This document shows, piece after piece, positions 25,104 through 44,356 of a stretch of DNA of 64,000 nucleotides; positions within the stretch are counted from its first letter, which is position 1; every line of letters begins with the position of its first letter. The stretch spans positions 62,001-126,000 of the forward strand of contig NZ_SAUF01000005.1 of the NCBI RefSeq assembly GCF_004023665.1, written 5' to 3'. The notes below the pieces were generated by a model, which was given only the letters and a program-made list of their open reading frames with translations, did not search any database and was not told where the DNA came from. This stretch comes from Afifella aestuarii. GTDB lineage: Bacteria > Pseudomonadota > Alphaproteobacteria > Rhizobiales > Afifellaceae. Made by a program: the position numbers and the translations under genes.

Positions 25104-25548
25104 TTCGGGCCGAGGCTTTGACGGCATCGGCCACCTCCGTGCTCGAAGGGGTGTCCGGAGGAGGCGACCCAGAGGAGGTTGCTGGAGGGGACACGGGCAG
25201 TCCGCCTCTGTTGCAAAAATCCTGTACTGAAAGGCGCTATTCGTCCCGTGGGGTGATGCCTCTGAGGCCAGACGAAGAGGGTGTCGAGACCTGGCAACAT
25301 GTGGCATTATGGCCGGATCGGGGCGCGGGCGCCTGTAGAAATCGTCATACATCGAAGTATTACCCTCCAATTCCGATGTAAATATTACGAATATTGGAGC
25401 TTCGAATGGCCGTTTTATGGCAAAAAGCAACCTGCACGCGCTAAAAATAAACCGAAAATAGAATTTTCTCCTATTGCCGGTGGGTAACGAAAGCGTTAGC
25501 GGCCTTGCCGACTTGACATATGCCTCTCTTAGCGCCAGTAAAAGCCCG
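25104..25548. other. Non-coding leader region upstream of the riboswitch
   Basis: No gene is recognised in these 445 bases. The stretch is AT-richer near 25360-25470 than its surroundings, so the promoter of the riboswitch transcript probably lies there. I could not assign -35/-10 boxes with confidence. Confidence 0.4.
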
Positions 25549-25735
25549 TTACCGGTTTCCGAGCGCGAGAGTGCAAGGATGAAAAGGGAATACGGTGAGG
25601 CCTACCAAAAAGGGGCCGAAACCGTAGCTGCCCCCGCAACTGTGAGCGGAGAGCAGGGCTGGGAGTGCCACTGGCGCGAAAGTGCTGGGAAGGTAGCCCT
25701 TGCTTGGTGCCGCGAGCCAGGAGACCTGCCGGTGA
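25549..25735 (+). promoter_or_regulatory. Cobalamin riboswitch (AdoCbl/B12 aptamer)
   Basis: All conserved blocks of the cobalamin aptamer are present in order: GGTTTCC, AAAAGGGAA, GGTG, the B12-box core GCCCCCGCAACTGTG, CCACTGG, GGGAAGG and the 3' block GAGCCAGGAGACCTGCC. The closing stem P1 is formed by TTACCGG (25549-25555) with CCGGTGA (25729-25735), with one G-U pair. It lies 133 bases before a PocR-domain histidine kinase that heads the microcompartment regulation, so B12 availability controls synthesis of the sensor and response regulator. No T-run terminator follows, which suggests a translational rather than a transcriptional mode. Confidence 0.94.
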
Positions 25736-25849
25736 TGTGCGTCGGGCTGTGTGGGCTGTCGGCGTACAACGAGGGATGTCGGGGTCTGCATCCAGCGACG
25801 AAAATCACGGCGGGCAGCGCTTGCGCTTGCTTGTCATCTTTCGGCGTTG

Positions 25850-25857
25850 GGCAGGTC
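25850..25857 (+). promoter_or_regulatory. Ribosome-site region complementary to the riboswitch 3' block
   Basis: The bases GGCAGGTC just upstream of the kinase start at 25868 are an exact 8-base complement of GACCTGCC (25723-25730), part of the conserved 3' block of the cobalamin aptamer. If the aptamer folds on ligand, the complement is occupied and this site would be free. This is an inferred expression platform; an unrelated match by chance is possible. Confidence 0.4.
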
Positions 25858-25867
25858 GGTCATCTTG

Positions 25868-27118
25868 ATGGAAGAGCATTTCCCAACTCATAAGTGGCGG
25901 ATCCAGGACTTCGTCGACGTCCCGACGTTGCAGAGGATCCAGGACACGTTTGCCAAGGCCATGGATATGGCGGCGGTGACAGTTGGTCGCGACGGGGTTC
26001 CCGTCACCAAAACAAGCAATTTCCAGCCTGTGTGTCGTTTGATGCGTTCCACCCCCGAAGGGTTGCGGCGCTGTCATGCATGCGATGCCTGCGGGGGCCT
26101 CGCCGCCTACCGGTCTGGCCGGCCGGCAACCTATGTCTGCCATGCCGGGCTCGTCGACGTCGCCGCGCCGATCATCATCGAGGACGAATATCTCGGCTGC
26201 CTCTTGTGCGGCCAGGTGATGCTCGAAAGTGAACGCGAGCGCACGATCCAGAACGTGCTCGACCGAAACGGTTCAATTGGCATTGCTCCGGCTGAACTCG
26301 AGGAAGCCGTCTATGCCATGCCGGCGGCCGATCGAGATCGCCTCGATTCCGCTGTCGAGATGCTGATGCTGGCGGCGAGCCACATCATCGAGATTGGCAA
26401 GACGAACCTGATCCAGGCGCGCCTCCTCAAAGAGGTGAAAGCCAAGGCGGCCACGGAAAAGGCGCTGCAGGATGCGCAGTTGCGGGCGTTGCAGGCGCGC
26501 GTCAATCCGCATTTCCTGTTCAATTCCTTGACGCTCATTGGCTACACGGCTTTCGAGGAGAAGGCGGTGAAGACCGAGGAGGTCGCTTATATGCTGAGCG
26601 ACATCCTCCGCTACAGCCTGCGCAATCTCGCCACTTCGGTACCGCTCAGCGAAGAATTCGACATGATCGAACGCTGCTTGCGCCTCCACCAGCTTCGCTT
26701 CGGCGACCACCTGAGCATCGAAGTCGATCTCGACGAAAGCCTGCGCAATTGGCCGGTCCCGTGCATGGTTCTGCAGCCGCTTGCCGAGAACGCTATCGTG
26801 CATGGGGTGGAAGCGCTCTCGCGGCCGGTGCGTGTGCGCGTTTCGGCCCGGAGGGTAGGCGATCGCGGCTTGATCGAGGTTTATGACAACGGCGCGGGGA
26901 TGAGTGAGGCTCAGGTCGCCGCGCTCAACAACGATCGTTGTGTCTTGCAGCAGGCGGAGCGCAGCCGCGCGGCTCTCGGACTGCAGAGCGTTATCACCCG
27001 GCTCGACAGCGAGTACGGCAACGACTTCGATCTAAAAGTAACAAGCAGATTGAATGAGGGAACCCGAATTGAGCTTTCCTGGCCACTCGGCGACTATGCG
27101 CAGCTCGAAAATGCTTGA
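25868..27118 (+). CDS. PocR-domain sensor histidine kinase (LytS/YesM-type) controlling the microcompartment genes
   Basis: This is a 416-residue cytoplasmic sensor kinase. Residues about 10-170 are a PocR-type sensory domain with a cysteine cluster (Cys56, 69, 72, 75, 91, then 111 and 114). In PocR of the propanediol/cobalamin regulator the domain responds to 1,2-propanediol, which fits the diol dehydratase operon nearby. A short coiled coil precedes the LytS-type kinase domain with the phosphoacceptor in NPHFLFNS (His215), an N-box (PLAENAIVHG) and a G-box (DNGAGM). There is no membrane segment. The start ATG at 25868 lies downstream of the cobalamin riboswitch. Its stop overlaps the response regulator, so the two form a two-component pair. 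Confidence 0.93.
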   Translation: MEEHFPTHKWRIQDFVDVPTLQRIQDTFAKAMDMAAVTVGRDGVPVTKTSNFQPVCRLMRSTPEGLRRCHACDACGGLAAYRSGRPATYVCHAGLVDVAAPIIIEDEYLGCLLCGQVMLESERERTIQNVLDRNGSIGIAPAELEEAVYAMPAADRDRLDSAVEMLMLAASHIIEIGKTNLIQARLLKEVKAKAATEKALQDAQLRALQARVNPHFLFNSLTLIGYTAFEEKAVKTEEVAYMLSDILRYSLRNLATSVPLSEEFDMIERCLRLHQLRFGDHLSIEVDLDESLRNWPVPCMVLQPLAENAIVHGVEALSRPVRVRVSARRVGDRGLIEVYDNGAGMSEAQVAALNNDRCVLQQAERSRAALGLQSVITRLDSEYGNDFDLKVTSRLNEGTRIELSWPLGDYAQLENA

Positions 27119-27980
27119 GCTCGCACGCACTGAGCGTTTTGCGTCCATGTTTCAAGGCGCTTTTCAGCAGGAGTCCTCGGTTCGGCCCGGCCTTTTGGTG
27201 GCCGACGACACGCCCATCATTCGCTCGACGGTCAGCCGCGTCGTGGCGGCGGAGGCGCTCGACTTCGCCAATGTCTGGGAGGCCAAGAACGGCTCCGAGG
27301 CGGTGGAGCTGGCGCGGCGCGAGCATCCTGAGCTTATTCTGATCGACATCAAGATGCCTGGCGTGGACGGGTTGGAAGCGGCGGCGATCATCAAGGCCGA
27401 GCTGCCGCGCACGCGGCTCATCTTCCTCACGGCTTATGATGAATTTGCCTATGTGCAACGCGCTCTCAAGATCGGTGCGCTCGACTATCTTCTGAAGCCG
27501 ATCCGTCCGGCGAAGCTTGGCGAATTGTTGCGGAAGCTCCACGGTGAGATCTGCACGGAATTGAGTGCGTCCTCGTCCGCCTCCGATGCGGAGATCGCGC
27601 GGGACGTGACGTCGGCTGCCACGCCCTGTGCGCCGGAGAGAGATCCGGTCAAGCGTGCGATCGCCTTCATTTCCGAAAACTATGCCGATGAAAACATGTC
27701 GCTCTCGGCTGTCGCCAATGTCGCGCATCTCAGCCCGTCGCACCTTGCGCACCGTTTTCGCGAATGTGTCGGCATCAGCTACAAGCAGTTTCTCACCGAG
27801 AAGCGCATCGAGGCGGCCAAGGATCTGCTCTTGACGACCGACACGACCAACGAAGCGGTCGCCGAGCAGGTCGGCTATGCCAACGTCACCAATTTCTATC
27901 GCCTGTTCCAGCGTGAGACAGGCATGACGCCGGCGCAGTTCCGCCGAAGCGAGAAGGAGCCGGTGCCGGACGCGCAATGA
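27111..27980 (+). CDS. AraC-family response regulator (YesN type), partner of the PocR kinase
   Basis: This is a 289-residue response regulator. The receiver has the acidic pair near residue 32, the phosphoacceptor Asp79 in LILIDIKMPG, the Thr in FLTAYDEF and the Lys in YLLKPIRP. The C-terminal AraC domain (about residues 190-289) has two helix-turn-helices, including LSAVANVAHLSPSHLAHRFR and EAVAEQVGYANVTNFYRLFQ. The start ATG at 27111 overlaps the kinase stop. It probably activates the divergent operons around 31281-31694. This kinase plus AraC regulator replaces the single PocR activator found in enterobacterial pdu loci. Confidence 0.93.
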   Translation: MLELARTERFASMFQGAFQQESSVRPGLLVADDTPIIRSTVSRVVAAEALDFANVWEAKNGSEAVELARREHPELILIDIKMPGVDGLEAAAIIKAELPRTRLIFLTAYDEFAYVQRALKIGALDYLLKPIRPAKLGELLRKLHGEICTELSASSSASDAEIARDVTSAATPCAPERDPVKRAIAFISENYADENMSLSAVANVAHLSPSHLAHRFRECVGISYKQFLTEKRIEAAKDLLLTTDTTNEAVAEQVGYANVTNFYRLFQRETGMTPAQFRRSEKEPVPDAQ

Positions 27981-27985
27981 TCTTC

Positions 27986-28019
27986 GCGCCGCCTATTTCT
28001 GGGGCGGCGCGCCTGTTTT
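27986..28019 (+). terminator. Hairpin with T-rich tail after the response regulator
   Basis: The arms are GCGCCGCC (27986-27993) and GGCGGCGC (28003-28010), followed by GCCTGTTTT. It lies 6 bases beyond the response-regulator stop and overlaps the 3' end of the convergent eutJ-like gene. It is probably the intrinsic terminator for the two-component transcript. Confidence 0.55.
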
Positions 28020-28841: not shown

Positions 28842-28851
28842 CGTTCCTGCC

Positions 28852-30081: not shown

Positions 30082-30158
30082 GGCCGCACTACCTCTGCGA
30101 GGCGTGGGGCGCCGGTTTTCGTTGAGCCGTGCCGCATCGCGGCCGTTGGCGAGGGATG

Positions 30159-31694: not shown

Positions 31695-32057
31695 ATGTCG
31701 CGGACGCAGTTCGACCAGGAAGAAGTATCGACACGTATTATTCAAGAATACGTGCCTGGCCGGCAGGTAACGATTGCTCATATTATCGCAAATCCGGACG
31801 CCGCTTTGTGCCAAAGGGTCGGTCTGGAGGATGCGGAGGCGGTCGGGATCCTAACCGTGACGCCGGGCGAGGGCACGATCATAGCTGGCGATCTGGCGAT
31901 GAAGGCGGCTGATGTCACCATCGGTTTCCTGGACCGCTTCAGTGGCACGCTGGTGGTGTGCGGCAGCCTGGATAGCGTCGAGGTCGCCGTCGAGGCGGCC
32001 AATCGTGGGCTCCAAAGTGTCCTTGCCTTCTTCCCGGCCAAGGTCACGCGGACATGA
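31695..32057 (+). CDS. pduU: Microcompartment shell protein, PduU/EutS type
   Basis: This is a circularly permuted BMC-fold shell protein of 120 residues. The family pattern is readable: the N-terminal STRIIQEYVPGRQVTIAHIIANP, then AVGILTVTPGEGTIIAGDLAMKAADVTIGFLDRFSGTLVVCG. In PduU and EutS such proteins form hexamers, often with a capping beta-barrel, that sit on the shell. It opens the main operon and its stop overlaps the start of PduV by 4 bases. Its position at the front of the operon differs from Salmonella, where pduU and pduV are near the end. Confidence 0.93.
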   Translation: MSRTQFDQEEVSTRIIQEYVPGRQVTIAHIIANPDAALCQRVGLEDAEAVGILTVTPGEGTIIAGDLAMKAADVTIGFLDRFSGTLVVCGSLDSVEVAVEAANRGLQSVLAFFPAKVTRT

Positions 32058-32566
32058 GGCGGGGCGGGGTGGCAATGGCTGCAGCGGAAACTCCCTCCGA
32101 GCGGCGCTTCATGGTGCTCGGCTCCGTCGGCTTCGGCAAGACGACTCTGCTGCGTGCTCTTGAGGGTGCGGGCGAGGCGGCACGCAAGACCCAGATGGTC
32201 GACTACGCCGGCTGGGGCATCGACACCCCCGGGGAATATTCCGAGATGGGGATGTTCCGGAACCATCTGATCACGACAGCGAACGACGCGGCAGTGCTCC
32301 TGGTGATCCAGGATGCCACACGCGCGCGCTCCAGCTTTCCGCCTGGGTTCTTCCTGATGTTTTCCCAGACCGTCATCGGCCTGGTCACAAAGATTGATCG
32401 TCCCGACGCCGACATCGCTCATGCCTCACGGCTGCTTCGCGATGCCGGGGTGCGTGGGGACATCTACCCCGTCTCTGCGGTTGAAGGCACCGGCATTGAG
32501 GAATTGCGCCAACGTCTTCTTGCCCTGGGACTGGTTCACCACAGCGCTTCTAACACAGAGGAGTGA
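32054..32566 (+). CDS. pduV: PduV/EutP-type P-loop NTPase
   Basis: This is a 170-residue small GTPase-like protein. The P-loop GSVGFGKTTLLRAL is at about residues 23-36, followed by DTPGEYSEM and a TKID nucleotide-specificity motif. PduV has been linked to microcompartment movement and interaction with PduU on the outside of the shell in Salmonella. The start ATG at 32054 overlaps the pduU stop (ATGA); an internal ATG at 32075 with a GC-rich leader is also possible. Its coupling to pduU supports a joint role. Confidence 0.9.
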   Translation: MRRGGVAMAAAETPSERRFMVLGSVGFGKTTLLRALEGAGEAARKTQMVDYAGWGIDTPGEYSEMGMFRNHLITTANDAAVLLVIQDATRARSSFPPGFFLMFSQTVIGLVTKIDRPDADIAHASRLLRDAGVRGDIYPVSAVEGTGIEELRQRLLALGLVHHSASNTEE

Positions 32567-32572
32567 AGCAAC

Positions 32573-32872
32573 ATGGCAAATACACCGGGTGAAGCCCTTG
32601 GCCTGCTGGAGACGAAGGGTCTTGTCGCGATGGTCGAGGCGGCCGACGCGATGGTCAAAGCGGCCAACGTCACGCTGATTGGCACGGAGAAGATCGGCTC
32701 TGGTCTCGTGACCGTCATGGTCCGTGGCGATGTCGGCGCCGTGAAGGCTGCCACCGATGCCGGTGCCGCTGCGGCACAGCGCGTCGGTGAAGTGGTTTCG
32801 GTCCACGTCATTCCGCGGCCGCACATGGATACGGAAAAGCTGCTGCCGAAGCTTCCGGGCGCCTCCAGCTGA
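32573..32872 (+). CDS. pduA: Microcompartment shell hexamer, PduA type
   Basis: This is a 99-residue single BMC-domain protein: [62 protein letters not shown] followed by VHVIPRPH. In this family six copies form a hexamer whose central pore admits small substrates such as 1,2-propanediol. It is the main flat hexamer of the shell. No second copy corresponding to PduJ is present in the window, so it probably does the work of both. Confidence 0.95.
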
Positions 32873-32906
32873 TCTGTACGCACTAGTCATTAAAGGATGA
32901 CACGCC

Positions 32907-33704
32907 ATGGACGATAAACTCCTCGACCAGATGGTGCAGCAGGTGATGCAGAAGATCGGCGGCAACGCCGGTGCTGCTCCGGCTGCTCCGGCTGCGTCGC
33001 AGCCCGCCACCAAGCATCCCGGCCTGACGGAATTCGTCGGGACTGCGGTCGGCGATTCGATCGGCATCGTGATCGCCAACCTCGATCCGAAGCTCCACGA
33101 AATGCTGGGCTACGACCCGAAGTACCGCTCGATCGGCATCCTGAGCTCACGCACGGGCGCCGGCCCGCACATCCTCGCCGTCGACGAGGCCGTGAAGGCC
33201 ACCAACACCGAAGTCATCTCGATCGAGCTTGCTCGTGACACCAAGGGCGGGGCGGGCCACGGCTCCCTGATCATCCTCGGTGCCGAAGAGGTGTCGGATG
33301 CCCGTCGCGGTATCGAGGTTGCCCTTAAGGATCTGCAGCGCACGTTCGGCGACGTCTATGGAAATGACGCCGGCCACATTGAGCTGCAGTACACCGCACG
33401 TGCCAGCTACGCCTGCAACAAGGCTTTCGGTGCCCCGATCGGGCGCGCTTTCGGTCTTTGCGTCGGTGCTCCTGCCGGTATCGGTGTCGAGATGGTCGAT
33501 GCCGCTGTGAAGTCGGCAGACGTCGATCTTCTGGGCATTTCTTCGCCGGCCAAGGGCACGTCTTTCTCGAACGAGGTCATCGGCTTCTTCAGCGGTGATG
33601 CCGGCGCGGTCCGCCAGGCGGTCGTCACGGCGCGCGAGATCGGCGTGAAGCTCCTCGGAACGCTTGGCTCGGAGCCGAAGACGGACGGAACTCCGTACAT
33701 CTGA
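32907..33704 (+). CDS. pduB: Microcompartment shell trimer, PduB type
   Basis: This is a 265-residue protein with two BMC folds in tandem; the trimers look like pseudo-hexamers. The N-terminal stretch (residues 4-17, LDQMVQQVMQKIGG) is a short amphipathic helix like the cargo-binding segment of PduB in Salmonella, followed by an Ala/Pro linker. The shell domains follow with FVGTAVGDSIGIVIANLDP and ISSPAKGTSFSNEVIGFFSG. It probably anchors enzymes to the shell and may gate larger molecules. It lies 34 bases after pduA and 31 before pduC. Confidence 0.95.
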   Translation: MDDKLLDQMVQQVMQKIGGNAGAAPAAPAASQPATKHPGLTEFVGTAVGDSIGIVIANLDPKLHEMLGYDPKYRSIGILSSRTGAGPHILAVDEAVKATNTEVISIELARDTKGGAGHGSLIILGAEEVSDARRGIEVALKDLQRTFGDVYGNDAGHIELQYTARASYACNKAFGAPIGRAFGLCVGAPAGIGVEMVDAAVKSADVDLLGISSPAKGTSFSNEVIGFFSGDAGAVRQAVVTAREIGVKLLGTLGSEPKTDGTPYI

Positions 33705-33735
33705 TCGAGAGCCAGCCTTAGCGAGGAATAAAAGT

Positions 33736-35403
33736 ATGGCCAAAAGGCATAAAAGATTTGAGGCTCTGGAGAAGCGGCCCGTCAACCAAGACGGGTATGT
33801 GACGGAATGGCCCGAAGTCGGCATGATTGCCATGGGCAGCCCGAACGATCCGAAGCCGAGCATCAAAGTCAAAGACGGTGTGATCGTCGAAATGGACGGT
33901 CGCACGGTTGACGAGTTCGACTTCAACGAACTCTTCATCGCCAAATATGGCATCAACGCCAAGGTCGCCGAAGAGATGATGGCGATGTCGGCTGTTGATA
34001 TCGCCAGGATGATCGTCGACATCAACGTGCCGCGCGAGAAGGTCGTTCGCGTCTTCTCGGGTCTCACGCCTGCCAAGATCGCAGCGGTGATCGACGAGCT
34101 TAACGTCGTCGAGATGATGATGGGCGTGCAGAAGATGCGTGCCCGTCGCACCCCGGCGAACCAGGCTCACGTGACCAACACCCAGGACAATCCCGTCCTG
34201 ATGGCGGCCGACGCGGCCGAGGCGACCTGCTACGGCTTCGCCGAGATCGAGACGACCGTCGCGGTGTTCAACTATGGCCCGTTCAACGCGCTTGCGCTTC
34301 TGATCGGTGGTCAGGTCGGCCGTCCGGGCGTCCTCTGGCAGGACTCTCTGGAGGAATCGATCGAGCTCGAGCTCGGCATGCGCGGTCTGACCGCCTATGC
34401 GGAAACGGTCTCGGTCTACGGCACGGAGCGGGTGTTCATCGACGGCGACGATACGCCGTGGTCGAAGGGCTTCCTGGCCTCTGCCTACGCCTCACGCGGC
34501 ATCAAGATGCGCTTCACCTCCGGTACCGGTTCGGAAGTGCAGATGGGTTACGCCGAAGGCAAGTCGATGCTGTACTTGGAGATCAAGTGCATCATGCTGA
34601 CCAAGGCGGCCGGCGTGCAGGGCCTGCAGAACGGCTCCATCTCGTGCATCGGCGTTCCGGCCGGCGTCCCGGGTGGTATCCGTGCTGTCCTCGGTGAGAA
34701 CCTCGTCACGGCGTGCCTCGACCTCGAGAACGCGTCGGGCAACGACCAGACCTTCTCGCATTCCGACATGCGTCGGACGGCCCGCCTGTTGATGCAGTTC
34801 CTTCCGGGAACCGACTTCATCACCTCTGGCTATTCGGCCACGCCGAACAAGGACAACATGTTCGCCGGTTCCAATGTCGACATCGACGACATTGACGATT
34901 GGCTGATCATTCAGCGCGACCTCAAGGTCGATGCTGGTCTTGTCCCGAGTTCGGAAGAGAAGATCGTGGAAGTCCGCAACAAGGCCGCCCGCGCCATGCA
35001 GGCTGTCTTTACGGAACTCGGTCTGCCGACGATCACCGACGAGGAAGTCGAAGCCGCGACCTACGCCCATTCGAGCGACGACATGCCGCCGCGCGATAAG
35101 GTGCGGGACACCAAGGCTGCGCAGGACATCCTGAAGCGGGGCATCACCGGTCTCGATGTGATCAAGGCTCTTGCCAAGCAAGGCTTTGCGGATGTGGCGA
35201 ACTCCGTTCTGTCCATCCAGAAGCAGCGCGTGGCGGGTGACTACCTGCACACTTCGACGATCTTCGACACCGACTTCAACCCGATCGCTGCCGTCAATGA
35301 CCTGAACGATTACCAGGGCCCTGGCACTGGATATCGGGCCGAAGGCGAGCGCTGGAAACAGTTGCAGACGATCCGTCAGGCCATTCGGCCTGAAGATCTC
35401 TAA
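33736..35403 (+). CDS. pduC: Propanediol/glycerol dehydratase large subunit
   Basis: This is the B12-dependent catalytic subunit, 555 residues, converting 1,2-propanediol to propionaldehyde (or glycerol to 3-hydroxypropionaldehyde). The sequence is typical from RFEALEKRPVNQDGYVTEWPEVGM through TPANQAHVTNTQDNPVLMAADAAEA, where the active-site glutamine and glutamate lie, to DDIDDWLIIQRDL. It acts as a dimer of PduCDE trimers inside the shell. The ATG at 33736 has an AGGAAT-like site. Propanediol and glycerol dehydratase subunits are too alike to choose, but the microcompartment and the PocR sensor favour propanediol. Confidence 0.97.
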   Translation: MAKRHKRFEALEKRPVNQDGYVTEWPEVGMIAMGSPNDPKPSIKVKDGVIVEMDGRTVDEFDFNELFIAKYGINAKVAEEMMAMSAVDIARMIVDINVPREKVVRVFSGLTPAKIAAVIDELNVVEMMMGVQKMRARRTPANQAHVTNTQDNPVLMAADAAEATCYGFAEIETTVAVFNYGPFNALALLIGGQVGRPGVLWQDSLEESIELELGMRGLTAYAETVSVYGTERVFIDGDDTPWSKGFLASAYASRGIKMRFTSGTGSEVQMGYAEGKSMLYLEIKCIMLTKAAGVQGLQNGSISCIGVPAGVPGGIRAVLGENLVTACLDLENASGNDQTFSHSDMRRTARLLMQFLPGTDFITSGYSATPNKDNMFAGSNVDIDDIDDWLIIQRDLKVDAGLVPSSEEKIVEVRNKAARAMQAVFTELGLPTITDEEVEAATYAHSSDDMPPRDKVRDTKAAQDILKRGITGLDVIKALAKQGFADVANSVLSIQKQRVAGDYLHTSTIFDTDFNPIAAVNDLNDYQGPGTGYRAEGERWKQLQTIRQAIRPEDL

Positions 35404-35427
35404 GCCGCGGTCAGGAGATAGACAGAA

Positions 35428-36108
35428 ATGGCACAGATCACAGAAGCAGCTGTCCGTGACGCGGTTCGGGAAGTCCTGGCCCAGATGCAGCTGGCGGAAG
35501 ACAAGAGTGCGAAAAGCACTCCGGTTTCCGCCTTTGCACCGGTCGACAACTCCGCCGCCAAGATGACACTGCGTGAGGTCGGCCCTGCCAAGCAGGGTAC
35601 GGAGCCGAACGAAGTCGTCGTGGCTCTTGCCCCGGCCTTCGGCGACAAGCTGAAGGAACAGACGATCACTGGCATCCCCCACGCCAAGGTGTTGCGCGAA
35701 ATTCTCGCCGGCATCGAGGAAGAGGGCTGCAAGGGACGCGTCATCCGGGTCAAGCACACCTCCGACGTCGCTTTCGCCGGCAATGTCGGTGCGAAGCTCG
35801 CCGGTTCGGGCATCGCCATCGGCATCCAGTCGCGGGGCACTTCGGTCATCCACCAGCGAGACCTGTTCCCGCTTCAGAACCTGGAGCTGTTCCCGCAGGC
35901 GCCGGTGCTCGACCTTGAAACCTACCGCTCAATCGGCCGCAACGCTGCGCGCTACGCGAAGGGCGAGACGCCCGATCCCGTGCGCCAGAAGAACGACCAG
36001 ATGGCCCGGCCGAAATACCAGGCCATCGCTGCGGTCCTCCACATCCGTGAAACCAGCTTCGTCGATCGCAATGCGAAGCCGGTCGATCTGGAAGTGAAGT
36101 TCAGCTGA
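35428..36108 (+). CDS. pduD: Diol dehydratase medium subunit
   Basis: This is the 226-residue medium subunit, which with PduC and PduE holds the cobalamin. Residues about 4-19 ([16 protein letters not shown]) form an amphipathic helix followed by a linker, as in the encapsulation peptide of PduD in Salmonella, which targets the dehydratase to the shell. The conserved body starts near [26 protein letters not shown]. It is 24 bases after pduC, in the same operon. Confidence 0.96.
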
Positions 36109-36127
36109 GCGGACAGGGAGAAAAACA

Positions 36128-36643
36128 ATGTCACAGCAAGACCTGATCAACTCCATTGTTCGCGAAGTGCTCGCGGAGCTGGGCAACGGCGGTTCCGCCG
36201 CTGCCCCCAGCAAGGCATCGGCAAGCGGAAAGCTCGACCACACGAAGGACTATCCGCTCGCCAAGAATCGCCCCGAGCTGGTCAAAACGCCGGGCGGCAA
36301 GTCGCTTGAGGACATCACTCTTGAGGATGTCCTCAACGGCAAGATCGGCCCGAACGACATCCGCATCACGGCTGATACTCTGGAATACCAGGCTCAGATT
36401 GGTGAGAGCGTCGGTCGCCCGCAGTTCGCGGCGAACCTTCGGCGCGCTGCCGAGATGACCCGGGTTCCCGACGACCGGATCCTGCAGATGTACAATGCTC
36501 TGCGTCCGAACCGTTCGACGAAAGCCGAACTGCTGGCGATCGCGGACGAGTTGGAGAGCAAGTTCGACGCACAGATTTGCGCGGGCTTCGTTCGTGAGGC
36601 GGCCGACGTTTACGAGCGTCGCGACGTCCTCCGTAAGGACTGA
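36128..36643 (+). CDS. pduE: Diol dehydratase small subunit
   Basis: This is the 171-residue small subunit. The N-terminal helix (DLINSIVREVLAELG, residues 5-19) has the hydrophobic spacing of encapsulation peptides and is joined by an Ala/Ser-rich linker to the body, DYPLAKNRPELVKTPGGKSLEDITLEDVLNGKI. The body belongs to the dehydratase small-subunit family. Together with the pduD helix it gives the complex more than one targeting tag. Confidence 0.95.
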   Translation: MSQQDLINSIVREVLAELGNGGSAAAPSKASASGKLDHTKDYPLAKNRPELVKTPGGKSLEDITLEDVLNGKIGPNDIRITADTLEYQAQIGESVGRPQFAANLRRAAEMTRVPDDRILQMYNALRPNRSTKAELLAIADELESKFDAQICAGFVREAADVYERRDVLRKD

Positions 36644-36772
36644 CGAAAACGGACCGACCAAACTCCTGCACGTTGCTCCCCCTTGGAGTTTGGTTCTCTG
36701 CGAAACGGCGGGTGTACCCCCAATTGGCCCGCCGTTTCGCACCTTCCTCAAAGCAAACCTATTGGAAGAAAA

Positions 36773-38611
36773 ATGAAGGTCGCGGGCGTCGATATCGGAA
36801 ACTCGACCACGGAAGTTGCCCTGGCCGAATTGGGCGCATCAGGTGGAGTGCCGAATTTCCTGGCCTCCAGCCGCATGCCGACGACGGGCATCAAAGGCAC
36901 CCTGGCGAATGTGCCGGGTGTGGTGCGCGCGCTTGAGACGGCTGTGCAGCAGGCTGGGCTCGCGTTGGGCGACATCGACCTTGTTCTTCTGAATGAAGCG
37001 ACCCCGGTGATTGGCGATATCGCCATGGAAACGATCACCGAGACGATCATCACCGAGTCTTCGATGATCGGTCATAATCCGAATTCTCCGGGCGGGCTCG
37101 GCATCGGTGTCGGCGTCACGCACGACATCAGTGAGCTTGAGACAGCCCCGAAAGACGAGGCGATCATCGCCGTCGTCCCGAAGACCTACGATTTCACCCG
37201 CGCCGCACAGATGCTGGCAGCGGCGATCGAGCGCGGCGTCGATGTGACGGCCGCGATCGTGCAGGGCGACGACGGTGTTCTGATCGCCAACCGCCTTCCC
37301 AAGAAGTTGCCGATCGTCGATGAAGTGAAGCTCATCGATCAGGTGCCGCTCGGCATGCTCGCGGCTGTCGAAGTGGCCGATCATGGCCAGGCGATCCAGC
37401 AGCTCAGCAATCCGTATGGCATTGCGACGCTCTTCAAGCTGACGCCGCAAGAAACGACGATGATCATTCCGATCGCCAAGGCCCTCATCGGCTTGCGCTC
37501 GGCCGTGGTCATCCGCACCCCCGCCGGCGACGTCCAGACCCGGCACATTCCGGCTGGTTCGCTGAAGCTTATCGGCGAGCGCCGCACGGTCGACGCGCCA
37601 ATGGATTCCGGCGCTGACGCGATCATGGATGCGCTCGCCGAGGCCTTTCCGCTCAAGGATGTGGAAGGCGAGTCCGGCACCAATGTCGGCGGCATGGTGG
37701 CGCGTGTGCGTCAGACCATGAGCAACATGACGAAGAAACCGGCGTCGGAGGTGCATATCCGCGACGTGCTGGCGGTCGATTGCCTCGTGCCGCAGCGGGT
37801 TTCGGGTGGCCTCGCCCAGGAATTCTCGATGGAGAATGCCGTCGGGCTTGCGGCCATGGTCAACACTGACAAGCTTCTGATGGAGCAGCTTGCCGAAGGT
37901 CTGCACAAGGAGCTCGGCATCAAGGTGCAGCTCGGTGGTGTCGAAGCCAATATGGCGATCCTCGGCACACTCACGACGCCGGGCCTCGACACGCCTTTGG
38001 CGATCCTCGACCTCGGTGCCGGCTCGACCGACGCAGCGATCCTTGAAAAGGACCGTGACGTGCGCTCGGTCCATCTTGCCGGCGCCGGCGACATGGTCAC
38101 GCTCCTCATCCAGCGTGAGCTCGATTTGCCGGGCGGCAACGAGACGGACATCGCCGAGCAGATCAAGCGCTTCCCGCTGGTGCGTGTGGAAAGCCTGTTC
38201 CACGTCCGCCACGAGGACAACACCGTGCGCTTCTTCGAGGAGCCGCTCGATCCGAAGCTCTTTGGCCGTGTCGCCCTGATCACCCCGGACGGGCTTTCGC
38301 CGATCCCGACGCACCACACGCTGGACCGCATCCGCGAGGTGCGCCGCGAGGCCAAGCGCCGCGTCTTCGTGCGCAATGCCATGCGGGCGCTCTCCGCGGT
38401 CGCGCCGGCCGGCAACATCCGTGAGATCCAATTCGTCGCCGTCGTTGGCGGTTCGGGGCTCGACTTCGAGGTCGCCCGCATGCTGACCGATCAGCTCGCC
38501 CATTACGGCACGGTGATCGGCACCGCCAATATCCGCGGCGCTCTCGGCCCTGTGAACGCCGTGGCGACCGGCCTCGTCCTCAGCCATGCGCGGCGTCAGG
38601 GAGCGGTCTGA
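36773..38611 (+). CDS. pduG: Diol dehydratase reactivase large subunit
   Basis: This is a 612-residue Hsp70-like ATPase that swaps inactivated cobalamin out of the dehydratase at the cost of ATP. N-terminal ATPase motifs include VAGVDIGNSTTEVALAE and later LAILDLGAGSTDAAILEKD, followed by VVGGSGLDFEVARMLTD. It is the usual length for PduG/DdrA. The ATG at 36773 gives the conserved start; a longer frame from 36683 adds an unconserved leader. A 129-base gap separates it from pduE. It works with PduH. Confidence 0.95.
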   Translation: MKVAGVDIGNSTTEVALAELGASGGVPNFLASSRMPTTGIKGTLANVPGVVRALETAVQQAGLALGDIDLVLLNEATPVIGDIAMETITETIITESSMIGHNPNSPGGLGIGVGVTHDISELETAPKDEAIIAVVPKTYDFTRAAQMLAAAIERGVDVTAAIVQGDDGVLIANRLPKKLPIVDEVKLIDQVPLGMLAAVEVADHGQAIQQLSNPYGIATLFKLTPQETTMIIPIAKALIGLRSAVVIRTPAGDVQTRHIPAGSLKLIGERRTVDAPMDSGADAIMDALAEAFPLKDVEGESGTNVGGMVARVRQTMSNMTKKPASEVHIRDVLAVDCLVPQRVSGGLAQEFSMENAVGLAAMVNTDKLLMEQLAEGLHKELGIKVQLGGVEANMAILGTLTTPGLDTPLAILDLGAGSTDAAILEKDRDVRSVHLAGAGDMVTLLIQRELDLPGGNETDIAEQIKRFPLVRVESLFHVRHEDNTVRFFEEPLDPKLFGRVALITPDGLSPIPTHHTLDRIREVRREAKRRVFVRNAMRALSAVAPAGNIREIQFVAVVGGSGLDFEVARMLTDQLAHYGTVIGTANIRGALGPVNAVATGLVLSHARRQGAV

Positions 38612-38614
38612 GCT

Positions 38615-39277
38615 ATGGCCGAGAAGTCCGAACGTCCCACCATCAACGTCGCGGTCGTCCGCGGAGCAACGCCGTCGCTTTACGAATGGGTGTTGATCGG
38701 CGCTGAGGAAGAGGGCGTCCCGACCAAGATGGCCGAGGCGGCTTCCGGCGATGTCGTGGATGCGGCTTATGCGGCTGCGATCAGTTCGCGGATCGATATC
38801 GGTGTTGCGATCGGCGCTGACGCGATCGTTCTGCACGAACGGCACATGCCGCCCGAAAAGCCGGTCTTGACGATTCCCTACGAAGGCAAAGCCGAAGCCG
38901 TCTGTCGCCGGGCCGGCGCCAATGCCGCCCGCATGGTGGCACGCCTTCCGCTGCTCTTCGAAGACGCGGTCGAGGATGTCGACGAGCGCGTTCGGCCGGC
39001 CTCCGAACGACGCGCCGCAGCACAATCGGCGGCATCCGTTCCGGCTAAGACTGCTGCCGCCCTTCGGGATGGCAACGGCGGGGGCGTCCCGACACAAAGC
39101 CAGGCGCGCGCCGAAGGCGGTGCTGGGGGCAATTGCACAAATCAACAAGCGGCTGAGACAGCAAGACGGCCGGCCGGCGAGGCCTCTCCCGAGCTTGCTC
39201 TGAGCGAGGCCGACATACGCAAGATCGTCAAAATCGTCGTGGCGATCATCAAAGAACGAGGAACACAATGGCGCTGA
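38615..39277 (+). CDS. pduH: Diol dehydratase reactivase small subunit with C-terminal extension
   Basis: The first ~120 residues are a normal PduH/DdrB domain (AVVRGATPSLYEWVLIGAEEEGVPTKM and GVAIGADAIVLHERHMPP). The protein continues to 220 residues, against about 116 in Salmonella. The added part is a low-complexity Ala/Arg/Gly linker (about 125-195) ending in a compact amphipathic helix, residues 197-214, with core EADIRKIVKIVVAIIKE. That helix has the hydrophobic pattern of an encapsulation peptide, but at the C-terminus. It may send the reactivase into the compartment. The last bases overlap the pduK start, so the end is fixed by the sequence. The extension is seen; its role is inferred. 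Confidence 0.92.
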   Translation: MAEKSERPTINVAVVRGATPSLYEWVLIGAEEEGVPTKMAEAASGDVVDAAYAAAISSRIDIGVAIGADAIVLHERHMPPEKPVLTIPYEGKAEAVCRRAGANAARMVARLPLLFEDAVEDVDERVRPASERRAAAQSAASVPAKTAAALRDGNGGGVPTQSQARAEGGAGGNCTNQQAAETARRPAGEASPELALSEADIRKIVKIVVAIIKERGTQWR

Positions 39278-39960
39278 AGGCTCTGGGATTGATCGAGGCC
39301 ATTGGCCTGCCGACTGCGATCGCAGCGGCGGACGCAGCGGTGAAATCCGCCAATGTCGTGCTGCTCGGCTCCGAGACCGCAAAAGGCGGTGGACGCATCA
39401 CCATCAAGCTCGCTGGCGACGTCGGTGCGATCCGCGCGGCGGTGGCCGCGGGAACGGCCGCTGGTGCCAAGGTCGGGCGGATCGATGGTCAGCTGATCAT
39501 CCCGCGCCCGCACGACACGCTCGAAAGCCTGATCCTGCAGGCCGGTGGCAAGCCGAAGTCGGAGGCGCCGAGCGAGGCCGCCCCAGAGGCGCCGGCGGCA
39601 GAGCCTGCGGCCGCTGAATCTGCGCCGGAAGAGGCGAGCTCCGAGGCCGCCGGTTCCGAGGACAGCGCCGAAGGCGAAAGCGACGCCGAAGACGACCAAC
39701 CCAAGGCTTCGGAGGTGACCGGGCCGGTCGCTGAAGAAGCCACCCAGGTCGAGACGTCCGCCGCAGCCGATGCAACCCCGCAAGAGGAAGCCCCGTCCGG
39801 GGCAGCGGCCGATAGCAACGATGAGGCGTCCGACGAAGCTGGTGATGAAGACGCCGATGACACCTCGGATGGCGAGACGGGCGAGACGAATGCGACCGGT
39901 GAGCACGCGGCCTCAAACGGCCGGCCCCGCAAGGGACGGCGCTCCAGAAGAAAATACTGA
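39268..39960 (+). CDS. pduK: Microcompartment shell protein, PduK type with acidic tail
   Basis: Residues 1 to about 88 are one BMC domain (LGLIEAIGLPTAIAAADAAVKSANVVLLGSETAKGGGRITIKLAGDVGAIRAAVAAG). A tail of about 140 residues follows, very rich in Glu, Ala, Ser and Asp, with no predictable fold, ending in a basic KGRRSRRKY. Salmonella PduK also carries a C-terminal extension, but of different character. The tail likely lines one face of the shell and could bind cargo, cations or other proteins; this is inference. The start overlaps pduH by 10 bases. Confidence 0.9.
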   Translation: MALKALGLIEAIGLPTAIAAADAAVKSANVVLLGSETAKGGGRITIKLAGDVGAIRAAVAAGTAAGAKVGRIDGQLIIPRPHDTLESLILQAGGKPKSEAPSEAAPEAPAAEPAAAESAPEEASSEAAGSEDSAEGESDAEDDQPKASEVTGPVAEEATQVETSAAADATPQEEAPSGAAADSNDEASDEAGDEDADDTSDGETGETNATGEHAASNGRPRKGRRSRRKY

Positions 39961-40039
39961 CGGTCGGTGAAGACCGCGTCGCCGACGATTGGAACGGACG
40001 AAGAAGACCGCGCCGAAGGCGCGACTGAGGAGTAACTCG

Positions 40040-40822
40040 ATGGAAATCACCGCCGAAACGATCGAAGGGGTCACCAAAGAAGTGGTCCGGCGTCTTTCGC
40101 AAGCGGGAGCGGGCGCGGCTAAGTCGACGGCGAGTGCACCACCGGCTGCGGCCAAGACTGAGGTGACGCCGCCCAAGCCTGAGGCTGCCCAGAGCGAGGT
40201 GCCGACGAAGCCGGTCATTCGTAACGGCAATCTGGAACTGCCGGTCTACACCGGCGTCTCCGTCCGCCACATCCATCTCTGCGACGAACACGTGAAGGTG
40301 CTCTTCGGCGAGGGCTACGACCTGCAGGTCTACAACGAGCTTTATCAGAAAGGCTATTTCGCCGCGAAAGAGCAGCTGATCGTCGTCGGTCCGAAGCGGG
40401 CGATCGAAAAGGTTCGCGTTCTCGGTCCGACCCGGGCGTTCTCGCAGGTCGAACTGGCACAGACGGATGCCACCAACATCGGCCTGAAGCTGCCGGTGCG
40501 CACCGAAGGCAGCGAAGAGGGAACGCAGCCCGTCACCCTCGTCGGACCGCGGGGCACTGTGCGCTTGCCGGGCGGCAAAGGCGGCGGCGCCTTCCAGGCG
40601 CGGCGCCACATTCACCTCAGCGACGATGTTGCCCGCGAACTTCGCGTCAAGGCCGGTGACCTTCTCGATCTCCGGGTCGACGGTCCAAAGCCCACGACGC
40701 TGCACGGCATCTTTGTGCGCGTGAAGGCGGGCTGGCGCACCGAATTGCACGTCGACACGGATGAAGCGAATGCGGCCGGCATCCGGACCGGCCAGATGTG
40801 CACGCTCATCATTCCGCGCTGA
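40040..40822 (+). CDS. pduL: Phosphotransacylase (phosphate propanoyltransferase) PduL
   Basis: This is a 260-residue zinc enzyme turning acyl-CoA and phosphate into acyl-phosphate and CoA, so CoA is recycled inside the compartment. Two repeats with metal-binding histidines are visible, VSVRHIHLCDEHV and QARRHIHLSDDVA. Residues about 5-19 (AETIEGVTKEVVRRL) form an encapsulation helix with a linker, typical of PduL. The ATG at 40040 follows a GAGGAG site and removes a non-conserved leader. It feeds the kinase encoded in the leftward operon. Confidence 0.95.
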   Translation: MEITAETIEGVTKEVVRRLSQAGAGAAKSTASAPPAAAKTEVTPPKPEAAQSEVPTKPVIRNGNLELPVYTGVSVRHIHLCDEHVKVLFGEGYDLQVYNELYQKGYFAAKEQLIVVGPKRAIEKVRVLGPTRAFSQVELAQTDATNIGLKLPVRTEGSEEGTQPVTLVGPRGTVRLPGGKGGGAFQARRHIHLSDDVARELRVKAGDLLDLRVDGPKPTTLHGIFVRVKAGWRTELHVDTDEANAAGIRTGQMCTLIIPR

Positions 40823-40843
40823 GGAGGCTGAAGGGAGAGGGCG

Positions 40844-41659
40844 ATGGACGAGGCAATCGTCGACATGGTCGTCGCCAGAGTGATGGCGCAGCTTGAGGGC
40901 GAGACGCTCGACACCTCACCGCGGCGCGTCGTCATGCTGCTGAGCGGGGCTGCGAGTGGCTTTTACGCCGCGCGCGAAGGCATCCGCCGCCTGAGCGCCT
41001 CCAAGCACGAGCTCAAAGTGCTGATGACGCCGGGTGCGCAGCATGTCCTGACCGAAGATCTGGTTCGCCAGGAGGGCGCGAAGACGATCCTTCCTTACGA
41101 TCCCTGGCTCGATGTGCCCGAGCTCATCAAGGGGTGCGACCTGCTCCTCGTGCCGTGCCTGACGATGAACCTTGCCGGTCGTCTTGCCCTCGGGCTCATG
41201 GATTCCCCGGCAACGACGCTCTTTCTGGGTGTGCTTCTTGCGGGCAAGCCGGTCATCGCCATTCGCAACGGCGCCGATCCTGCGGACAAGCGCGGCGAGG
41301 TCATGGGGTCAAAGCCGGACGGCTCGCCCGTTCTCTGGTCGCTTCTGCAGGAATACCTCGCCCGGCTCGCCGCCTTCGGCGCGGAGATGGTCGACAAGCA
41401 AGACTTCTTGATGCGGATGGAGCGCCACCTCGTGACGTCGCGCCACGTGACGGAGGCGCCTGCCGTTGTTCCCCAGCAGTCGGCCACGGTCGCCGCTGGG
41501 ATATCGAACACGGTGACGCCAGCCGCGAAATTCGTGACCGCCAACGAGCTCCTGGGGCTTGCGCCTGGTTCTTCAATCAGCCTCGCGCCGGGGCAGGCTT
41601 TGACGGCCCAGGCGCGCGATGCTGTCGAGCGCCTGCATCTCAAGCTCGTTGCCGCGTGA
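40844..41659 (+). CDS. Microcompartment-associated flavoprotein (HFCD fold) with encapsulation-type N-terminus
   Basis: This is a 271-residue protein sitting where pduM lies in other loci, but not similar to it. After an N-terminal helix (IVDMVVARVMAQLEG, residues 5-19) it has a flavoprotein-type domain of the PPC-decarboxylase/EpiD fold: RRVVMLLSGAASGFYAAREGIRRL, LVPCLTMNLAGRLALGLMDSPATTLFLGVL. A C-terminal part, AKFVTANELLGLAPGSSISLAPGQALTAQARDA, may bind partners. Such flavoproteins occur in some microcompartment loci and may serve cobalamin reduction or internal redox balance; the reaction is not known. PduS is missing here, so it could supply reducing power for PduO. Confidence 0.75.
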   Translation: MDEAIVDMVVARVMAQLEGETLDTSPRRVVMLLSGAASGFYAAREGIRRLSASKHELKVLMTPGAQHVLTEDLVRQEGAKTILPYDPWLDVPELIKGCDLLLVPCLTMNLAGRLALGLMDSPATTLFLGVLLAGKPVIAIRNGADPADKRGEVMGSKPDGSPVLWSLLQEYLARLAAFGAEMVDKQDFLMRMERHLVTSRHVTEAPAVVPQQSATVAAGISNTVTPAAKFVTANELLGLAPGSSISLAPGQALTAQARDAVERLHLKLVAA

Positions 41660-41678
41660 CAGTGAAAGGACGACTGAA

Positions 41679-41927
41679 ATGCAACTTGCAACGGTAATCG
41701 GAACTGTCGTCGCCACGCGCAAGGATGATGCGCTCGTTGGCTACAAGCTCCTCGTCCTGGAAACCTCGGACGGCTCCCGTATCGTCGCCATCGACCTCGT
41801 CGGCGCCGGCGGCAGCGACACGGTTCTCTACGTCACTGGCGGCGCTGCGCGCGTGAAGCTGGATAAACCAAGCCCCGTCGACGCGGCTGTCGTCGGCATC
41901 GTCGACACAGTGGATGTGCGGTCATGA
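41679..41927 (+). CDS. pduN: Microcompartment vertex protein PduN (EutN/CcmL family)
   Basis: This is an 82-residue pentamer-forming protein of the EutN/CcmL/PduN family, which caps the corners of the polyhedral shell. The sequence MQLATVIGTVVATRKDDALVGYKLLVLE, then DLVGAGGSDTVLYVTGGAAR and VDAAVVGIVDTVDV, is fully typical. The ATG at 41679 has an upstream GGACGA-like site. The stop overlaps the pduO start (ATGA), so it is translationally coupled to it. Confidence 0.95.
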   Translation: MQLATVIGTVVATRKDDALVGYKLLVLETSDGSRIVAIDLVGAGGSDTVLYVTGGAARVKLDKPSPVDAAVVGIVDTVDVRS

Positions 41928-42904
41928 GCGTCTACACAAAGGGCGGAGACAAGGGCGAAACCTCGCTTCTCGGCGGTCTGCGTGTCCCTAAGGACAGCCT
42001 GCGGGTGGAAGTCTACGGGACCCTCGATGAGGCCACCTCGGCTATGGGCCTCGGGCGTGCCTCCTGTGAGGATGACGAGCTGCGCGGCGACCTCCATTGC
42101 CTCCAGCGCGAGCTGATCGACGTGATGGCAGAGGTTGCCTCCGGCTTTGACCCCGACAAGCCGCGCAAAGGCAAAGTCTACCGCGTCGAGCCGCACCAGG
42201 TGGAACATCTGGAGAAACTGATCGACGCCTATCAGGAAGAGCGTGTCCCCCAGAGAGGCTTCGTGACGCCTGGTGGAACACCGGCTGCGGCAGCCCTCGA
42301 CATGGCTCGCACCTTCGTGCGCCGCGGCGAGCGCCGTCTCATCGCACTCGGCCGGGAAGAAGAGATCAACCCGGTTCTCTTCAAATATTTCAATCGCTTG
42401 TCTGACTATCTTTATATGGCGGCGCGCATCGACGAGCAGCGTGCGGTCGTTCGCGAAGTCACCAGGCAGATCAAGAAAGCCAAGGCCGAACCCGAGGAGG
42501 GGACGATGACGGAACTCTGCCTGTCAGATTGCGATCAGCTGGTGGAAGCCGGAATTGCCCGTGCGGACGCCATTTCCGTGCCGATGGTGCTGGTCGTCGT
42601 CGACGCGGCCGGTGATCTGATCGAGCTGCGCCGCATGAAGGGCTCGCTGGGCGTCAGCCTGAAGCTTGCGCCGCACAAAGCCTATACGGCCGCTGCCGTG
42701 CGCTCGCCGACCCATGAGATCGCGAAACTATCGCAGCCCGGCGGTCCACTGTTCGGCATCGACAGCAACATTCCGAACTTCACGCTGGTCGGCGGGGGGC
42801 TGCCTCTTGAGCGCGGCGGCCGCGTCGTCGGCGCGGTGGGCGTAAGTGGTGGATCCGTCGAGGAAGATATCGATGTGGCCCGCGCGATGGTCGCGGCGCT
42901 GTGA
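41924..42904 (+). CDS. pduO: Two-domain PduO: ATP:cob(I)alamin adenosyltransferase plus GlcG/HbpS-type domain
   Basis: This is a 326-residue protein. Residues 1 to about 190 form the PduO-type adenosyltransferase (VYTKGGDKGETSLLGG and VPQRGFVTPGGTPAAAALDMARTFVRRGERR), which makes adenosylcobalamin from cob(I)alamin and ATP. Residues about 195-326 are a GlcG/HbpS/DUF336-type domain (LSDCDQLVEAGIARADAISVPMVLVVVD), known to bind haem in PduO. The fusion matches the full-length PduO of Salmonella. The reductant for cobalamin would normally be PduS, which is missing here. Confidence 0.95.
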   Translation: MSVYTKGGDKGETSLLGGLRVPKDSLRVEVYGTLDEATSAMGLGRASCEDDELRGDLHCLQRELIDVMAEVASGFDPDKPRKGKVYRVEPHQVEHLEKLIDAYQEERVPQRGFVTPGGTPAAAALDMARTFVRRGERRLIALGREEEINPVLFKYFNRLSDYLYMAARIDEQRAVVREVTRQIKKAKAEPEEGTMTELCLSDCDQLVEAGIARADAISVPMVLVVVDAAGDLIELRRMKGSLGVSLKLAPHKAYTAAAVRSPTHEIAKLSQPGGPLFGIDSNIPNFTLVGGGLPLERGGRVVGAVGVSGGSVEEDIDVARAMVAAL

Positions 42905-42931
42905 GAATTCTGTGAAAGGAAAAGACACGCT

Positions 42932-44356
42932 ATGGCTGTAGAAGACAACACAATCAGCGAGATCGTTCGCCGGGTTCTCGGTGAGATGGGTGGACGGCCA
43001 GACGCTGACCGTTCGGCTCTCCGGCCGCAGCCGGTCACGACCGGGCAACGTGGCGTCTTTGCGAATGCGGACGATGCCATCCTTGCCGTCGAGCGTGCCA
43101 ATGCGGAGTTCCGTAGCGTCAGCCTCGCCAAGCGCAAGGCGATCGTCGACGCGCTGCGGGAAGTGACGATCGAACATGCGCAGGAACTGGCTCAGATGGC
43201 CGTTTCCGAGAGCCGCATGGGCCGCGTCGAGGATAAGGTCAAAAAGCACCTGGCGATCGCTGAAAAGACGCCCGGTGTGGAAGGCCTGCCGACGAACGCC
43301 ATGGTCGGCGATTTCGGCCTGTCGACGGAGGAGCCGGCGCCGTTCGGCACGATCCTCGCCGTGACGCCGACGACCAATCCCACGGCGACGCTGCTCAACA
43401 ATGCGATCAGCATGCTGGCGGCTGGCAACACCGTGTATTTTGCGCCGCATCCGCGTGCCCTGAAGACATCCCTGCACTGCATCGACCTCATCAACGAGGC
43501 CGTGGAGAAGGCGGGCGGTCCGGCCAACACCTGCGTGACGACGAGCTCCGTCGATCTCAAGGTGGTTCAGGGCCTGATGCGCCATCCGAAGATTGCGATC
43601 CTGTGCATCACAGGCGGTACCGGCGTCGTCAGTGAAGCGATGACGAGCGGCAAGCGCGTGATCGGCGCCGCTGCGGGCAACCCACCGGTCTTGGTCGACA
43701 ACAGCGCCGATCCGGCGAAGGCCGCCCGCGAAATCATCGCCGGCCATTCCTTCGACAACAACCTTCCGTGCATCGCCGAGAAGGAAGTCATCGCGACCTC
43801 CGGCATTGCCGATAACCTCATGGCGGCTTTCGGCCGTTGCGAAAATGCCGTCGTTCTCGGCGCAGACCGTCTGCCGGAGCTCGAGCGCATCGTGCTCAAC
43901 GAAAAGCGGACGGGTGGCGCGCCGAAGATGATCGGCCAGAACGCCAACGTCATCCTTCGCGAACTCGGCATCGATGCGGGCGACGACATCCGGGCCATCA
44001 TCGTGGAGACCGACCGGAAGCATCCGTTCGTGGTGCACGAGCTGATGATCCCGGTTCTCGGCGTCGTGCGCGTCGGCAACTTCAAGGAAGCGGTGGATGT
44101 CGCCGTGGAGCTTGAGGGCGGCAACCGTCACTCGGCCATCATCCATTCCTCCGACGTCTATCACATGAGTGAGTTCGGCAGGGCGATCAACACGACGATC
44201 TACGTTAAGAACGCTCCCTCCTATGCCGGTATCGGCATCGGCGGCGAGGGACATACGGGCTTCACCATCGCTGGGCGGACCGGCGAGGGCATTGCGACCG
44301 TGCGCACCTTCACGCGTGTTCGCCGCTGTGCGCTCGTTGGGGCGTTCTCGCTCTAG
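42932..44356 (+). CDS. pduP: CoA-acylating propionaldehyde dehydrogenase PduP
   Basis: This is a 474-residue aldehyde dehydrogenase that turns propionaldehyde, NAD+ and CoA into propionyl-CoA. The N-terminal helix (ISEIVRRVLGEMGG, residues 8-21) and following linker are an encapsulation peptide. Signature segments include AVTPTTNPTATLLNNAI and the catalytic cysteine in NNLPCIAEKE. It makes the acyl-CoA for PduL and the NADH that the alcohol dehydrogenase uses. It is the last enzyme gene of the operon; a 414-base gap with hairpins follows. Confidence 0.96.
   Translation: MAVEDNTISEIVRRVLGEMGGRPDADRSALRPQPVTTGQRGVFANADDAILAVERANAEFRSVSLAKRKAIVDALREVTIEHAQELAQMAVSESRMGRVEDKVKKHLAIAEKTPGVEGLPTNAMVGDFGLSTEEPAPFGTILAVTPTTNPTATLLNNAISMLAAGNTVYFAPHPRALKTSLHCIDLINEAVEKAGGPANTCVTTSSVDLKVVQGLMRHPKIAILCITGGTGVVSEAMTSGKRVIGAAAGNPPVLVDNSADPAKAAREIIAGHSFDNNLPCIAEKEVIATSGIADNLMAAFGRCENAVVLGADRLPELERIVLNEKRTGGAPKMIGQNANVILRELGIDAGDDIRAIIVETDRKHPFVVHELMIPVLGVVRVGNFKEAVDVAVELEGGNRHSAIIHSSDVYHMSEFGRAINTTIYVKNAPSYAGIGIGGEGHTGFTIAGRTGEGIATVRTFTRVRRCALVGAFSL

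Follow-up and report, generated by a model that had tools for sequence, protein, structure and literature searches.

Does cobalamin turn the sensor of a B12-dependent pathway on or off? This question is raised by a locus in a 64,000-nucleotide stretch of Afifella aestuarii DNA (the window), where a cobalamin aptamer precedes a PocR-domain kinase/AraC-type regulator pair at a diol dehydratase locus. That arrangement, put forward in a preliminary description made from the sequence alone, was borne out by Rfam and Pfam searches (Table 1). The aptamer match is full length (model positions 1-189 of 189, E 5.8e-31), scores 125 bits against a gathering threshold of 31.5 for RF00174, and is the sole gathering-level Rfam match in the 64-kb window. 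The kinase open reading frame contains PocR (3.3e-49), His_kinase (1.8e-20), and HATPase_c (9.5e-9) domains, and its product is 98% identical to the kinase of Afifella marina DSM 2698. The true start of the regulator probably lies further 3' than listed. Upstream of the aptamer, no clear -10 element was found near the TTGACA motif, and a consensus scan of 25100-33000 returned no sigma-70-like sites.

After the regulator gene, the opposite strand carries an FtsA/HSP70-like gene and an acetate/propionate-kinase gene, which are followed by the BMC and pduCDE genes. The pdu locus, which also encodes PduV/EutP and whose PduO is an adenosyltransferase, is the probable target of the kinase/regulator pair. 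About 315 residues without a Pfam match precede the kinase domain in the acetate/propionate kinase reading frame (28852-31005, minus strand). Farther along, the gene at 46730-49018 was considered as a glycyl-radical dehydratase, a B12-independent alternative, and rejected; it is a pyruvate formate-lyase (TIGR01255), with activase and adhE genes close by.

Table 1. Features of the kinase leader and the neighboring genes, in window coordinates
Feature	Position	Strand	Basis or remark
Possible -35 box, TTGACA	25513..25518	+	5' of the aptamer; invariant in aligned Afifella leaders
Cobalamin riboswitch aptamer	25536..25747	+	RF00174, 125 bits
L5, CCCCG, one side of the predicted kissing loop	25632..25636	+	Complement of L13 CGGGG
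B12-box segment, GACCTGCC	25723..25730	+	Rfam alignment; 25725-25730 paired in the folded aptamer
Alternative long hairpin, proposed sequestor	25773..25866	+	P13/L13 strands pair with the ribosome-binding site, stacked on P14
P13 hairpin, GGAUGU/GCAUCC, loop L13 CGGGGUCU	25774..25793	+	CGGGG at 25780-25784
P14 hairpin	25794..25848	+	Between P13 and the ribosome-binding site; 20/20 pairs kept in 3 sequences
B12-box complement, GGCAGGTC	25850..25857	+	Contains the putative weak Shine-Dalgarno AGGU, 25853-25856
PocR-domain sensor histidine kinase	25868..27118	+	Pfam; ATG at 25868
Response regulator, receiver and AraC-type HTH	27054..27980 as listed	+	Pfam
BMC shell, PduCDE diol dehydratase, reactivase, phosphate propanoyltransferase, PduO, aldehyde dehydrogenase	31695..44356	+	

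In the platform that extends from the aptamer's end toward the start codon, we identified the 6-bp hairpin P13, whose loop is complementary to L5. The CCCCG/CGGGG complementarity, together with the position of P13 in the platform, predicts from the sequence the L5-L13 kissing loop of RF00174. P13 and L13 are invariant in the three distinct kinase leaders available (those of the window, A. marina, and the sister species G001), and a hairpin with the CGGGG loop core is present in 17 of 21 other Afifella leaders. Across the same three sequences P14 shows a single GU-to-AU change. When the window is compared with A. marina, the platform as a whole shows 1 substitution in 127 nt, against differences at 11.3% of kinase third codon positions. 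We considered whether the leader is conserved as a coding extension of the kinase from an in-frame GTG at 25751, and rejected this explanation because the 13 substitutions in G001 between 25757 and 25865 are spread 6/3/4 over first, second, and third codon positions. An intrinsic terminator was also rejected, the single leader match (25810-25824) being weak with a poor T-run. Minimum free energy folding of the whole leader was uninformative by itself (z -0.89).

The strands of P13 and L13 have a second potential partner. We folded the kinase leaders of the window, G002 (which has the A. marina leader), and G001. In local folds that begin at P13 and end 15 nt beyond the start codon, the minimum free energy structure in 3/3 leaders is one long hairpin in which these strands pair with the ribosome-binding site (RBS), and the RNAalifold consensus agrees. 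G001 keeps 40 of the 41 pairs; of its five paired-column substitutions, four are tolerated (one-sided) and one is breaking, and the three related leaders show no two-sided covariation in this hairpin. In these models, P13 formation and RBS sequestration are mutually exclusive, as they draw on the same strands within one long hairpin. The long RBS hairpin would represent the OFF state.

To place this arrangement in context, we compared it with other cobalamin leaders of the genus. The genome of the window has four more RF00174 elements, located before DUF4198/CbiM, TonB-receptor, periplasmic-binding-protein (BtuF-like), and CobW-type genes. Another genome of the genus (G003) has 11 such elements compared with five here; among the genes behind them are two for ribonucleotide reductases, of NRDD and Ribonuc_red_lg type. 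The comparison of P13-RBS pairing used 17 of 35 cobalamin-riboswitch loci, 3 kinase and 14 control; loci lacking a readily assignable start or a CGGGG-loop P13 were left out, as were 6 of 36 RF00174 matches. Control genes were identified by Pfam in 8 of the 14 cases (L001, L002, L004, L026, L033, L040, L042, and L048) and by likeness of leader and start in the others (L025, L029, L035, L041, L045, and L051), and the OFF sign of the control leaders is the one expected from gene function.

The share of the 16-nt RBS region that pairs with the P13 element in local folds (3 or 15 nt of coding region included) is 0.80 to 0.87 in 3/3 kinase leaders, which as close relatives count as one independent case, compared with 0.00 to 0.07 in 14/14 controls. 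Thus, sharing of the P13 strands with an RBS hairpin, as expected of an activating riboswitch, is seen locally in all of the former and none of the latter. Only 1 in 1,000 dinucleotide shuffles of each kinase leader reached the observed share. When the platform from the aptamer's end is included, the share is 0.13 to 0.37 in the window, 0.54 to 0.73 in G002, and 0.78 to 0.80 in G001, while no control exceeds 0.10. What sets the match apart is its stacking on P14 and not the strength of the bare duplex: duplexes as strong occur in 15% (window), 6% (G002), and 4% (G001) of shuffles, and those of L026 and L033 are about as strong as in the kinase leaders. As drawn, the sequestor is 8 to 12 kcal/mol more stable than P13 plus P14, with the kissing-loop energy not counted, so switching may need to be kinetic.

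Based on these models, the explanation we favor, with a probability of slightly below one half, is a sense-strand translational B12-ON riboswitch that works by P13 anti-sequestration. Without adenosylcobalamin, the P13/L13 strands would pair with the region from the Shine-Dalgarno sequence to the start codon, stacked on P14, and the kinase would be poorly translated; AGGU, or GGAG in G001, presumably serves as the kinase Shine-Dalgarno sequence. With ligand bound, the L5-L13 kissing loop (25632-25636 with 25780-25784) would lock P13, which would then act as an anti-sequestor and free the RBS. Kinetic control is plausible since P13 would be transcribed about 60 nt before its competitor. Synthesis of the kinase and regulator would in this way require the cofactor of the diol dehydratase, such that the pathway would respond to substrate AND cofactor.

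We estimated the sign of the switch from the cost of opening the RBS, calculated as the cost with P13 and L13 bases imposed minus that of free folding, in 16 leaders (L035 was left out) with 16 overlapping choices of ends for each; for L033, settings repeat. Among nine cbiM-, btuF-, and nrd-type controls, 140 of 144 settings were positive (OFF-like). The G001 kinase leader was negative (ON-like) in 16/16 settings, the window in nine, with one at -0.0 and six positive (at most +0.5), and G002 in ten, with six positive (at most +1.2). The minima, around -10 kcal/mol, come from short contexts; with the full leader, values in the window and G002 are near zero. The test can mislead, because L026, a presumed-OFF TonB-type leader, gives ON-like values, as low as -6.8 kcal/mol, in 12 of its 16 settings; other TonB-type leaders are ON-like in 6 (L002), 3 (L041), and 7 plus one at -0.0 (L040) of 16. 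In an earlier version of the test, which used the platform with the B12 box, the three kinase leaders gave -1.5 to +1.3 kcal/mol with 25 to 40 nt of coding sequence and +0.5 to +2.6 kcal/mol, which is OFF-like, with 60 nt. Opening the RBS in the bound model still costs about 9 to 15 kcal/mol, due in part to a GUUGGG/CCCAAC pairing into the coding region. In these models, then, the local architecture says ON and the longer-context equilibrium says neutral. The suggestion in the preliminary description that B12 is an ON signal gains some independent support from the exclusivity of P13 and the RBS hairpin and from the distribution of the riboswitch described below, but the full-leader tests are near neutral in the window and the A. 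marina-type leader. Its argument that an OFF switch would be self-defeating at this locus is reasonable and falls short of proof.

The mechanism proposed there was a different one, in which the unbound B12 box, GACCTGCC, hides the Shine-Dalgarno sequence by pairing with GGCAGGTC and the ligand retains the box within the aptamer fold. As claimed, the complement matches at all eight bases. In 5,000 dinucleotide shuffles of the 127-nt platform, a complement to this 8-mer arose in 1.2% of cases anywhere and in 0.2% within the last 30 nt, and a complement to any 8-mer in 3.1% of cases from the 21-nt 3' block and in 44% from the whole aptamer. Part of the match is built in, as the box is intrinsically an anti-Shine-Dalgarno sequence containing ACCT, complementary to AGGT; AGGTC also precedes the GTG starts of four TonB-receptor-type leaders (L002, L026, L040, and L041). 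With the box released and P13 forbidden, the pairing forms at 0.95 to 0.98 in the window and A. marina, and none of 300 shuffles matched the strength of the box duplex in the window or G002. In the sister species G001, GGCGGAGC replaces GGCAGGTC while the box is unchanged, leaving 6/8 pairs at -8.0 kcal/mol versus -16.4 in the window; here 29% of shuffles are as strong, and the pairing is absent from the ensemble under the same settings. Substitutions in G001 affect 3 of the 8 complement bases versus 11 of the 119 other platform bases (Fisher p 0.04), and a second variable patch lies at 25757-25767. Because the sister species breaks the complement and its bases change more than the leader average, the complement is probably not the switch, and we consider this mechanism the least probable of those weighed here; the pairing may still add to an ON response in the window and A. 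marina. The box has another possible partner: CCUGCC (25725-25730) can pair with GGCGGG (25809-25814), the 5' strand of P14, and this alternative is conserved with 6/6 pairs, G001 having GGCAGG (GU to AU). This alternative would compete with P14, opening it only in the absence of bound ligand.

An ordinary OFF switch is a weightier alternative to the B12-ON reading, though we judge it unlikely. Here, ligand-stabilized P13 would lead, by way of P14 or the GUUGGG/CCCAAC pairing, to a closed RBS or to Rho-dependent termination, and B12 would lower expression of the sensor, perhaps to restrain an expensive pathway by feedback. According to the available text of PMC10653944, the corrinoid riboswitches known repress their genes, apart from one described exception; both the OFF-like values with 60 nt of coding sequence in all three kinase leaders and the conserved pairing of the box with P14 agree with this behavior. 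Against it, P13 itself closes the RBS in the local folds of the kinase leaders, unlike in the 14 controls, and short contexts are ON-like; moreover, the presence of the cofactor would silence the very sensor that neighbors the enzyme dependent on it. It is also conceivable, if improbable, that the aptamer binds its ligand but control is transcriptional, through Rho or pausing, or is now weak, with the leader maintained for another reason. In all modeled states the RBS seems weak and structured, and the poor T-run of the sole terminator-like site would leave Rho or pausing as the means of transcriptional control; what this explanation accommodates poorly is the near identity of the platform in the window and A. 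marina and the invariance of the kissing-loop hairpin.

The distribution of the riboswitch among relatives of the kinase bears on the B12-ON reading. Kinase relatives were found in 12 of 397 genomes of the order (E <= 1e-40), and only the three Afifella among them have a riboswitch before the kinase, all three with pduC. In G267, whose kinase is 64% identical, pduC and the kinase are present with no riboswitch around the kinase, which counts against the B12-ON reading; a cobalamin riboswitch with a TonB receptor (G267:C10:13852-14059) lies about 4.6 kb from pduC in that genome. The other eight relatives (35 to 38% identity) have a pyruvate formate-lyase-like gene about 11 kb from the kinase. 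The riboswitch was absent from the examined loci of 8/8 of these, and pduC was not found in 4/4 genomes searched. BMC genes and an activase-type radical-SAM protein are encoded near the kinase in G241 and G069.

A wider search of PocR loci took in loci from 30 of 50 matches. Using a B12-box pattern, which can miss odd boxes, we found the full box in 7/7 loci from three Afifella genomes and in 0/51 non-Afifella loci (41 distinct places) among the 58 scanned. Loose matches at L059, L070, and L079 do not have the CTGCC part, and Rfam returned no cobalamin match for the 12 of the 51 non-Afifella loci submitted to it (L010-L019, L021, and L022). Two plasmid records carry 34% relatives. One of them, from Rahnella aquatilis (L103, CP042358.1), has a PocR-kinase/AraC-regulator pair beside BMC, pduF, and glycyl-radical activase genes, and the pattern scan found no B12 box in it. 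The pair also occurs near BMC and radical-SAM activase-type genes at L021 and L022, as in L103. Such pairs may serve BMCs more generally as sensors. Among the kinase relatives surveyed here, the riboswitch occurs only beside the B12-dependent enzyme, though a single gain may account for this. We tentatively suggest, with slightly less confidence than in the ON switch itself, that the switch and the sensor together form an AND gate of RNA and protein, acquired in a lineage whose compartment relies on the B12-dependent enzyme, the kissing-loop hairpin serving as the anti-sequestor.

If correct, a B12-ON switch on the sensor would show how a cell makes sure of its cofactor before committing to an expensive organelle. 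It would also suggest a simple rule for finding ON switches among annotated cobalamin riboswitches, namely, P13 strands that are complementary to the RBS. By title and the start of the abstract, we found no report of this riboswitch/PocR-kinase arrangement in the open-access literature. The other Afifella cobalamin riboswitches (cbiM-, TonB-receptor-, btuF-, and nrd-type), presumed to be repressing, belong to the same aptamer family and differ in leaving the RBS essentially unpaired with P13 in the local folds of the 14 compared.

In Listeria, the available text of PMC9943018 describes a B12 riboswitch that acts on pocR through an antisense RNA, which is terminated by the ligand. Expression of a PocR-type regulator would depend on B12 in both systems. 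The contrast drawn in the preliminary description, antisense there versus sense strand here, is correct: the Afifella aptamer lies in the 5' leader of the PocR kinase, with both on the plus strand, which does not fit an antisense-acting element of the Listeria type. If the B12-ON reading holds, the Afifella leader would achieve on the sense strand what an antisense RNA achieves in Listeria.

The closest mechanistic parallel is the cobT riboswitch of Alkalihalobacillus halodurans, presented in the available text of a 2023 study of this element and P. megaterium metE (PMC10653944) as the first activating corrinoid riboswitch; it is the one such element described in that text, transcriptional and located at a synthesis gene. 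In cobT, P13 and the terminator are mutually exclusive. In both leaders, by prediction in the Afifella case, a P13 stabilized by the kissing loop excludes the OFF structure, so ligand should activate; because P13 excludes the RBS hairpin, the Afifella kinase leader has an ON architecture by the cobT rule. The two differ in that cobT uses an intrinsic terminator, responds to cobinamide, controls a B12-synthesis gene, and was shown to be activated with reporters, whereas the Afifella leader precedes a sensor kinase gene, and its RBS sequestor, ligand, and sign are all predictions. By analogy, the Afifella layout would be the translational counterpart of A. halodurans cobT.
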